A DNA stretch of 21,551 nucleotides from a virus. The notes below the pieces were generated by a model. The model did not search any database. It was not told the DNA's origin and saw only the letters and a list, made by a program, of their open reading frames with translations. Position numbers and translations under genes: made by a program. This document shows, piece after piece, positions 245 to 2,917 of the stretch. Numbering within the stretch: the stretch's first letter is position 1; the number at the start of each line of letters is the position of its first letter. The stretch spans positions 1-21,551 of the IMG/VR virus record IMGVR_UViG_3300013131_003718; one strand, 5' to 3'.

Positions 245-616
245 ATGATCCTATATCATGGCACCAAAAAAAGCAACCTTCCTGGCATTCTTAACTCAGG
301 TTTAAGAGCAGGTTTTGGATGGGGTGCAGATAATCCTGGTGTCTTTCTGTCTAAAGATCCCGAAAATGCATTGTATTGGGCAAAAATGTCCGTGGAGAAG
401 TCAGGTGGTCAACACGATACTCCTGTGATCATTCAAGTCGACGTTCCAGAGGATGCAATTTCTAACATCATTCCAAGAAGAACAAGTTTCGCAAAAGAAG
501 GTGATGTTCAGTTTTTAGGTGCAATTCCAAGTGGTTGGGTTAGTCCTTATGTTCAAGTAAGATCTGAAGAAACACGATTACTGAAGAAATTGGTAAGAGA
601 ATTCTTGAAACACTAG
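245..616 (+). CDS. ADP-ribosyltransferase-like (KptA/PARP-type fold) small protein
   Basis: A 123-residue protein that begins MILYHGT. The YHGT motif (His5), followed by a GILNSGL helix, then VFLSKDPENALYWA (Tyr44), is the pattern of the H-Y-[EDQ] branch of ADP-ribosyltransferase folds (Tpt1/KptA and PARP-like proteins). The C-terminal part, around GAIPSGWV near residues 92-99, resembles the 'G-x-IPP-x-x-I' end seen in small phage and bacterial proteins of this kind. The third catalytic position is not clear; Gln89 is one candidate. It may modify a host protein or nucleic acid with NAD, or remove an RNA 2'-phosphate; the substrate cannot be read from the sequence. No good Shine-Dalgarno precedes the ATG. 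By eye it is AT-richer than the flanking ClpP and helicase genes, which fits a separately acquired cargo gene. The fold call is fairly safe; the activity is inference. Confidence 0.65.
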   Translation: MILYHGTKKSNLPGILNSGLRAGFGWGADNPGVFLSKDPENALYWAKMSVEKSGGQHDTPVIIQVDVPEDAISNIIPRRTSFAKEGDVQFLGAIPSGWVSPYVQVRSEETRLLKKLVREFLKH

Positions 617-655: not shown

Positions 656-2305
656 ATGCCTAAACATGACTACGTGAGGTATTTCCCATTTGATAGGATC
701 CGTCCTGAACAACGTAAGGCGATTGAATTCGCCCTCGACGCCTATGAATCAGGCAAGAAAGCCGTCCTCCTAGAAATGGGAACGGGTACAGGCAAATCGG
801 CCACAGGTATCTGCATCGCACGTTACATGGAGGCACATGCTCCTGTGATTAAGGATGAGGAGGGAATGCCTCTCACCGGTGCCTACGTGATCACCACCCA
901 GAAGATACTCCAAGAGCAGTACATGGACGACTTTGGGCCTCAATCCGGACGAAATCTCATTCGTACCATCAAGTCTGCATCTAACTACAGGTGTAAGCAC
1001 TACTCCGATAATTCATGTTCGGAGTCAAAACGTTTACTTCTCAAACTTGGCAAGCAGGTGGCAGGAACTGATTTCGCAAAGACTTGCAAGAACGAGTGCA
1101 CATACTCCCTGGAAAAACAGGACTTTATCGAGTGTCCAATCTCCATCACGAATTTCTCCTATTTTCTGGCGGAGACCACATACGCAGGAAAGTTAACTCC
1201 TCGTGCCCTCCTGGTGGTGGACGAGTGCCACAACACGGAAACGGAACTGGGCAAGTTCATCGAAGTGAGTTTCTCTGAGAAGTTCGCTCGAGATGTTCTC
1301 AAGTGCAAGATCCCGAAGCTGGACACTCAGGAGGCGGTTCTCGAGTGGGTGAAGGGTACATACCGCAAGGCAGTGAACAAGTACGTTCGAGAACTGGAGA
1401 AGAACCTCGTGAGATTATCCGATTCGGAAGGTCAAGGAGAGTTCTCGAAGCAGTACGAGATGCTTGAGAAGCACACCGGTAAGATCGATCAGTTCATTGA
1501 GGTATATAACCCAACCAATTGGGTGATGAATGTGGCCTATCCACAAGAGGGCAACCGCAGGGGAGCCCGCAAGTTTGAATTCAAACCCGTGGATCTGGGA
1601 CCGTACTCACAGAAGGTATTCCTTCGATCCGGAGCTCGAACCCTGATGATGAGTGCCACCGTTGTGGACCATGAGGTGTTTTGCAAATCTATCGGCCTAG
1701 ATCCTGCCGATGTTGCCTATCTTCGAATTGGATCTCCCTTCCCGGTGGAGAATAGGCCGGCCCACTACATTCCTGTAGGTTCTATGGGCAGAGATGCCAT
1801 CGACAAGACCTTACCGGTGATGGCCGAGGCTCTTAAGATGATTCTTGAGAAACATCCAAATGAGAAGGGTATCATCCATACCGCCAACTATAAAGTCGCC
1901 AAGTACCTAGTTGAGAACGTCAAGACTAATAGGTTCCTTACACACGAGTCTGGTAACAGGGACGAGGTGCTTAAATTCCATGTGACCTGCTCAGAACCTA
2001 CGGTTCTCTTGTCTCCATCGATGATGGAAGGTGTAGATCTTGCCGACGACGCCTCGAGGTTCCAGATCCTTTGTAAGGTTCCTTTCCCCTATCTTGGTGA
2101 CCTTGTTATCAAGAAAAGGATGGAGAAGGACAAGATGTGGTATCCTTACACCACTGCAAAGTCGGTGATTCAGGCTTTCGGACGATCCATTCGAAACGAG
2201 AAGGATCATGCAGTCTCCTACATCCTCGACGCTGACTGGGGCAGGTTCTACTCACGTAACTTACACATGTTTCCACAAGAATTCAGGTCTTCCTTCGTCA
2301 AATAA
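656..2305 (+). CDS. XPD/DinG-like superfamily 2 DNA helicase with Fe-S cysteines
   Basis: A 549-aa ATP-dependent helicase. Walker A is at residues 41-48 (MGTGTGKS). The DECH form of the DEAD/DEAH box is at 189-192 (VVDECH). Motif VI is QAFGRSIRNE starting near residue 506, with the arginines expected for ATP hydrolysis. Between Walker A and DECH lie cysteines at about 113, 121, 144, 148 and 160. Four of them could ligate the 4Fe-4S cluster typical of the XPD/Rad3/DinG group, which unwinds DNA 5' to 3'. SATVVDHEVF near residues 334-343 matches motif III of this family (x-SAT). It probably acts in phage DNA replication, recombination or repair, removing forks, flaps or R-loops. The gene is well separated from the ART-like gene (39 bases). 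Codon use is GC-rich with many C- and G-ending codons, unlike the structural genes downstream. An Fe-S cluster is inferred from cysteine position only. Confidence 0.9.
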   Translation: MPKHDYVRYFPFDRIRPEQRKAIEFALDAYESGKKAVLLEMGTGTGKSATGICIARYMEAHAPVIKDEEGMPLTGAYVITTQKILQEQYMDDFGPQSGRNLIRTIKSASNYRCKHYSDNSCSESKRLLLKLGKQVAGTDFAKTCKNECTYSLEKQDFIECPISITNFSYFLAETTYAGKLTPRALLVVDECHNTETELGKFIEVSFSEKFARDVLKCKIPKLDTQEAVLEWVKGTYRKAVNKYVRELEKNLVRLSDSEGQGEFSKQYEMLEKHTGKIDQFIEVYNPTNWVMNVAYPQEGNRRGARKFEFKPVDLGPYSQKVFLRSGARTLMMSATVVDHEVFCKSIGLDPADVAYLRIGSPFPVENRPAHYIPVGSMGRDAIDKTLPVMAEALKMILEKHPNEKGIIHTANYKVAKYLVENVKTNRFLTHESGNRDEVLKFHVTCSEPTVLLSPSMMEGVDLADDASRFQILCKVPFPYLGDLVIKKRMEKDKMWYPYTTAKSVIQAFGRSIRNEKDHAVSYILDADWGRFYSRNLHMFPQEFRSSFVK

Positions 2306-2317
2306 AGTTTACTTTAT
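2302..2317. repeat. AT-rich inverted repeat over the helicase stop codon
   Basis: ATAAAGT-TT-ACTTTAT is a perfect dyad with 7-base arms that includes the TAA stop of the helicase gene. It is not followed by a T-run, so it is a poor terminator. Its symmetry and position, ahead of the Hc1-like gene, would fit a protein-binding site, but nothing else supports that. Confidence 0.3.
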
Positions 2318-2334
2318 AGAAGGCGACCATATAT

Positions 2335-2350
2335 TCCTGATTCAGGAGGT
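2335..2350 (+). promoter_or_regulatory. Strong Shine-Dalgarno inside an inverted repeat, leader of Hc1-like gene
   Basis: AGGAGGT at 2344-2350 is a full-strength Shine-Dalgarno, the best in the window, 11 bases before the ATG at 2362. It overlaps the perfect dyad TCCTGA-T-TCAGGA (2335-2347). The dyad's one-base centre is too tight for a normal RNA hairpin, but an operator protein or alternative pairing of the SD is possible. High translation of the downstream DNA-binding protein is expected, with possible repression at this site. Confidence 0.55.
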
Positions 2351-2361
2351 CACATTAACAA

Positions 2362-2565
2362 ATGAGTGATAACCCAATTGCATCGAAGTGGAATGAGTTG
2401 AAGACCCTCGTGGAGAGCCTCGAGGCTGACGTTGCCAAGAACGCGAAGGGCGTTGCGGCTGCTGGTGTCCGAGCTCGTAAGGGTCTTCGACAACTTCAGA
2501 CAAGTGCTAAGGAGCTTGTCAAGCTCACACTTGAGACTGATAAGGCCGAAAAGGAAAAGGCTTGA
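2362..2565 (+). CDS. Histone H1-like (Hc1-type) small nucleoid protein
   Basis: A 67-aa protein resembling the N-terminal domain of chlamydial Hc1-type histone H1-like proteins. The pattern L-x-x-L-x-E-S-L-x-x-D-x-x-K (residues 13-26), then a glycine, an alanine-rich stretch with R-x-R-K-G (37-41), L-x-x-L and AKEL (49-52), follows that family from memory. It is rich in lysine and alanine and should be mostly helical. Hc1 compacts DNA; a phage version could package or shield phage DNA, or silence host DNA. The lysine-rich C-terminal tail of chlamydial Hc1 is absent. However, the next protein (2615-2917) ends in a KPKKKSAVKKKE tail, so a split function is conceivable. A strong SD precedes it and a hairpin terminator follows only 6 bases after the stop, so it probably ends a transcript. 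A relation to other small coiled-coil phage proteins cannot be excluded. Confidence 0.65.
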   Translation: MSDNPIASKWNELKTLVESLEADVAKNAKGVAAAGVRARKGLRQLQTSAKELVKLTLETDKAEKEKA

Positions 2566-2571
2566 CATAAT

Positions 2572-2604
2572 TAAAGGGCCCTCTAATGAGGGCCCTTTAT
2601 GTTT
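2572..2604 (+). terminator. Hairpin terminator after Hc1-like gene
   Basis: A 12-bp perfect stem, TAAAGGGCCCTC (2572-2583) with GAGGGCCCTTTA (2588-2599), closes a TAAT loop. The 3' side runs into TTTATGTTT. The GC core with flanking A- and T-rich arms is typical of an intrinsic terminator. The near-symmetric A and T flanks mean it could work on both strands, although the genes on both sides are on the + strand. Confidence 0.75.
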
Positions 2605-2614
2605 AGGAGACAAC

Positions 2615-2917
2615 ATGAGAGCTCAAAGAGCAGTCTTAAGAGAGATAGCCGAAAGAAATTTAAATCCAAAAATTGTCTACGTTGCAGGCAAGGATGGTCA
2701 ACTGGTCGAGAAAAAGAAGCCGGAGTTTAAGGCTTCAGAAGCGCCAAAAGTTGAAGACGTTATTGAGACATCAACACCTGCACAAGTGCAGATTGCCGAT
2801 GTCCCTGTCGAATCAGTGGGTGAAGAAGTAGATGTAGTCGAATCTGCACCTACGCAAGAAGAAGTCAAGCCAAAGAAAAAGTCAGCTGTCAAAAAGAAAG
2901 AAACTACTGACGAATAA
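2615..2917 (+). CDS. Small charged protein of unknown function, lysine-rich tail
   Basis: A 100-aa protein starting at ATG 2615, chosen because AGGAG (2605-2609) lies 5 bases upstream and because the terminator hairpin sits just before it; the frame is open further upstream but only across the Hc1-like gene. The N-terminus (MRAQRAVLREIAERNLNPKI, then VYVAGKDGQLVEKK) looks folded. The middle (about residues 40-84) is acidic, rich in Val, Glu, Pro and Thr, and probably disordered. The C-terminus is basic (KPKKKSAVKKKE). The function is not recognised. The basic tail resembles nucleic-acid-binding tails of Hc1-type histones, and the gene follows the Hc1-like gene. Its end overlaps the end of the convergent minus-strand sigma-like gene by 14 bases. 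Confidence 0.7.
   Translation: MRAQRAVLREIAERNLNPKIVYVAGKDGQLVEKKKPEFKASEAPKVEDVIETSTPAQVQIADVPVESVGEEVDVVESAPTQEEVKPKKKSAVKKKETTDE

Follow-up and report, generated by a model that had tools for sequence, protein, structure and literature searches.

Do large phages reorganise DNA with an Hc1-type protein? The question is raised here by a 67-residue product encoded in the window, meaning the whole stretch of DNA analysed: the complete 21,551-base IMG/VR virus record IMGVR_UViG_3300013131_003718, which probably represents only part of a larger phage. A sequence-only reading had seen in this product an Hc1-like N-terminal domain, a very strong ribosome site and a terminator directly behind the gene, and had taken these as signs of a highly made DNA-binding protein. 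The gene and its surroundings are as follows.

656-2305, plus strand: DinG/Rad3-like helicase (phrog_2488)
2308-2335, plus strand: promoter-like element, TTTACT-16-TATATT
2344-2350, plus strand: Shine-Dalgarno sequence, AGGAGGT
2362-2565, plus strand: Hc1-type (PF07432) protein of 67 aa, modelled as a helical hairpin
2575-2604, plus strand: intrinsic terminator, a 9-pair hairpin with a T-rich tail
2615-2917, plus strand: next gene, about 100 aa
2904-3170, minus strand: sigma-70 region-4-only protein, 88 aa
3206-4636, plus strand: PIN-PhoH protein

A phage gene of the Hc1 family

The Pfam profile PF07432 'Hc1' aligns with residues 9-58 of the 67-residue protein (E=2.2e-11), with a score of 43.9 bits where the gathering cutoff is 23.5 bits. 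This confirms by profile search the domain that had been recognised from the letters alone, and the match also holds for the diverse phage relatives tested. Searches of the NCBIfam and PHROGs profiles gave no match to the protein, and a sequence search of the PDB gave no relative. The open reading frame at 2362-2565 is a genuine coding gene under purifying selection, because relatives differ chiefly at the third codon position; compared with the relative L009, the differences at positions 1, 2 and 3 number 2, 1 and 16. It is also a phage gene, as first proposed, since PhoH and head-closure genes accompany it in the virus record.

The protein terminates 9 residues past the matched domain, and the lysine-rich C-terminal nucleic-acid-binding domain of chlamydial-type Hc1 is absent. 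Its net charge is +3, and that of the relative L075 is 0. A few relatives (L036, L042, L049) carry short lysine-rich tails; most have none. Judged from its sequence, the window protein is a member of PF07432 that stands outside the full chlamydial Hc1 architecture. In chlamydial Hc1, the part homologous to the PF07432 match is the dimerisation domain, and it is the lysine-rich tail that binds DNA (PMC2848022). As only the dimerisation half is retained here, with the DNA-binding tail missing and a charge of only +3, DNA binding is not implied by the PF07432 match. The sequence-only reading's step from family to function was, as stated, unsupported.

A scan of viral contigs placed relatives of the window protein in at least 118 IMG/VR stretches, the largest contig measuring 369 kb; a second phage type, that of Synechococcus phage S-SRM01, is present in at least 443. 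Among large aquatic phages, Hc1-type genes that are short and mostly without a tail are common. From the first set, 80 loci were retained for comparison. The 46 of these with a DinG-like helicase upstream are here called the DinG-side group, a group defined by gene content and not by a tree. Each of the 20 large records tested carries exactly one PF07432 gene, and a T4-type Gp23 capsid gene is present in 13 of 15 related contigs. A tblastn search of 50,697 GenBank phages with the window protein and with the relative L055 returned nothing; the same search with a third relative gave weak matches, which pointed to S-SRM01.

The sole match in a cellular genome is a contig of a Legionellales MAG (L082, PBNF01000027.1). 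It carries the phage block of Hc1, sigma-region-4 and PhoH genes and is best read as phage, probably either misbinned or marking a link to a host.

A hairpin with an invariant basic tip

An AlphaFold2 model of the monomer, built with 69 relatives, contains two helices, at residues 5-28 and 32-66 (pLDDT 93.6, pTM 0.72). This is confidently the helical hairpin that the sequence-only reading expected of an Hc1-like protein. The model is without strands and does not correspond to the winged-helix globular domain of eukaryotic linker histone H1. Hydrophobic stripes run along both helices. Foldseek comparison with the PDB and BFVD returned generic helical hairpins only, none at E<=0.001; among solved shapes, small helical oligomers come nearest, at E-values short of significance. 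Because no significant structural relative was found, the fold gives a shape and no function.

Ten columns are invariant among the 69 relatives (D23, K26, G30, A34, G35, R37, R39, G41, L42 and R43), and all except D23 lie within residues 26-43, around the turn. Charge is distributed in a similar way: residues 22-46 carry +5, residues 1-21 carry -2 and residues 47-67 carry 0. The first helix is acidic. In the model, the basic patch at the hairpin tip is a plausible nucleic-acid contact, and DNA binding through this conserved tip is possible.

Signals for expression

The AGGAGGT at 2344-2350 pairs with the anti-Shine-Dalgarno sequence at -11.0 kcal/mol, the strongest value among the window genes tested. 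The 13 other window ORFs of at least 150 aa have a median of -5.4 and a best value of -6.6 kcal/mol. When 70 loci were compared, a site as strong as that of the adjacent Hc1 gene was seen in only about 10% of the other tested ORFs.

Behind the gene, a hairpin at 2575-2596, followed by a T-rich tail, begins 9 nt past the stop codon. The 51-nt terminator region has a folding energy of -25.6 kcal/mol (z -5.2); a simple scanner missed the terminator, and a scan permitting a T-rich tail listed it. Within 150 nt behind Hc1, 13 of the 42 DinG-side loci, the window's subgroup, and 7 of 30 others have a strong hairpin followed by a T-rich tail, as against approximately none in mononucleotide shuffles. 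These hairpins occupy the same place as the window terminator, with differing sequences and a preserved shape. In some relatives without a terminator, the next gene lies directly behind Hc1. Both the ribosome site and the terminator thus stand as first described. The further claim of a highly made product is upheld as far as the signals of strong expression go; abundance itself is what we infer from them.

A third signal lies upstream. The form TTTA(C/T)...TATA(T/C)(T/A) occurs within 80 nt upstream of Hc1 in 36 of 42 distinct DinG-side loci and in none of 30 loci of the other group. In 11 large DinG-side contigs (2.07 Mb), the exact element TTTACTN{15,17}TATATT occurs six times, each time directly upstream of Hc1; the five contigs without it include carriers of variants, such as TTTACG...TATACT in L050. 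Base composition at 40% GC would, on our estimate, give about 4-5 chance occurrences in the 2.07 Mb, which makes the element's absence away from Hc1 notable. In these contigs there is a single copy of the full consensus TTGACA/TATAAT. The idea of TTTACT/TATATT as a promoter for early genes in general was rejected, as no occurrence was seen elsewhere in the genomes searched. By its sequence, the element is promoter-like: a near-unique candidate promoter of the Hc1-type gene.

A conserved gene block

The order Hc1 (plus), sigma-region-4 (minus) and PIN-PhoH (plus) is kept in 76 of 80 loci, with PhoH identity down to 35%. The sigma-70 region-4-only protein (PF04545, E=3.6e-9) is encoded convergently to Hc1, contains a cysteine cluster and could be a late-transcription factor. 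The PIN-PhoH assignment comes from profile matches.

The gene at 2615-2917 follows Hc1 throughout the DinG-side group and is absent from the other group. Its product has no Pfam match; it combines a conserved N-terminal motif (RAxLxxIxxxxLDPK), an acidic linker and a lysine-rich C-terminus (for example KPKKKSAVKKK), and the whole protein is near neutral or acidic. The idea of a split Hc1, in which this gene supplies the missing tail, is weakened by the group that lacks the gene and by a protein that is not basic overall.

Other neighbours vary. At 245-616 (plus strand), the window encodes a 123-aa protein with weak, below-cutoff similarity to Tpt1/PARP-type ADP-ribosyl-handling enzymes, found in 1 of 80 relatives only. 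A phage tmRNA gene lies 3' of Hc1 in ten loci of the other group (L054, L057, L064, L066, L068, L069, L072, L073, L077 and L078), directly behind it in nine. In L054, and also in L066, L069 and L072, a tubulin/FtsZ-like GTPase adjoins Hc1 and the tmRNA gene, behind the latter (in L054 the PF00091 match, E=5e-8, is barely above cutoff). In L068, about 710 nt behind Hc1 and behind the tmRNA gene, lies the gene for another PF07432 protein, of 63 aa and divergent in sequence (E=1.5e-14).

Possible function in the infected cell

The best explanation, held at a probability of roughly 0.5, is that the window belongs to a large T4-like aquatic phage whose tail-less Hc1-type protein is an abundant small nucleoid-associated protein that remodels DNA in the infected cell. 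If so, its action would likely involve: plentiful production, driven by a promoter of its own and the strong ribosome site; pairing of the two-helix hairpins into dimers or small oligomers; contact of the basic patch at the invariant tip (K26, R37, R39, K40, R43) with nucleic acid; and, as the likeliest use, coating and remodelling of the host nucleoid or of replicating phage DNA. In its favour stand the family match, the hairpin model with its hydrophobic stripes, the invariant basic tip, the expression signals and the single PF07432 gene in each record tested; chlamydial Hc1 made in E. coli condenses the nucleoid (PMC13317200). Against it weigh the missing DNA-binding tail, with the dimerisation domain retained, the charge of only +3 (0 in L075), the acidic first helix and the Foldseek result, which gave no significant structural relative.

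Some of the same observations lead to a second reading, which is possible but clearly less probable. Since the dimerisation half is the sole half of Hc1 present, the protein may be a dimerisation module without DNA binding of its own, one that adjusts or blocks a partner by pairing with it, the partner being an Hc1-family protein of the host or a phage protein. The next-gene product of the DinG-side group, with its lysine-rich C-terminus, would be such a partner, and Hc1-family proteins exist in Bacteroidota (control genome Bacteroides ihuae), the host phylum predicted for most moraphages (PMC12619734). However, the other group retains the same Hc1 core without the next gene, whose product is near neutral or acidic overall, and the invariant tip is basic, as would suit contact with nucleic acid.

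Two readings that fix the timing are unlikely, and about equally so. In one, a late protein would condense phage DNA for packaging or be carried in the virion, as is proposed for moraphages (PMC12619734). In the window and several relatives, the gene does stand beside a run of large, possibly structural proteins. To our knowledge, however, T4-like packaging requires no histone, and the subgroup's own promoter-like element resembles the host sigma-70 type and occurs nowhere else in the genomes searched. The other draws on that element: in this phage group the Hc1-type gene alone would combine a well-formed promoter of the sigma-70-like kind with a perfect ribosome site, and host polymerase would express it immediately, as a takeover protein that remodels the nucleoid of the host when infection begins.

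Least probable is a role in transcription, in which the protein would be a small partner either of RNA polymerase or of the sigma-region-4 protein encoded convergently. This would account for the pairing of the two genes in 76 of 80 loci, but PhoH is equally conserved there and the pairing may be inherited gene order. The S-SRM01 gene stands outside this block, and neither sequence nor fold links the protein to polymerase-binding proteins.

Relation to known proteins

Phage Hc1-like proteins had been called little characterised. This is fair, in that no bench study of a phage Hc1-type gene was found in the literature searched; such proteins had, however, been reported already, in moraphages and as a 'histone H1' of S-SRM01. 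The promoter-like element, the gene block and the invariant hairpin tip now offer concrete handles on whether phages reorganise DNA through an Hc1-type protein.

Chlamydial Hc1 (HctA) has an N-terminal domain homologous by profile; the window protein differs in being phage-borne, 67 aa long and charged +3, and in lacking the lysine-rich DNA-binding tail. T4 MotB, an early phage protein with non-specific DNA binding and an effect on how host H-NS binds (PMC7827196), is a possible functional parallel, although its fold is unrelated, with predicted KOW and OB domains. Also known is the annotated 'histone H1' of the isolated cyanophage S-SRM01 (QPX48246.1), confirmed here as a short PF07432 protein (E=1.8e-14); it differs from the window protein in sequence type and gene neighbourhood.

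A further published case is that of the moraphages, large aquatic phages that also carry PhoH. An account of November 2025 reports PF07432 proteins in four complete genomes of this kind and proposes packaging or compaction as their role (PMC12619734). None of the marker genes used for that lineage was found in the window. The passages of the moraphage account covered here mention neither an architecture without the tail nor a hairpin tip, a promoter element or a block of conserved genes. Phage PF07432 genes were thus known before; set against those passages, a tail-less protein whose basic tip is invariant, a conserved gene block and a near-unique element of promoter-like form are possibly new.
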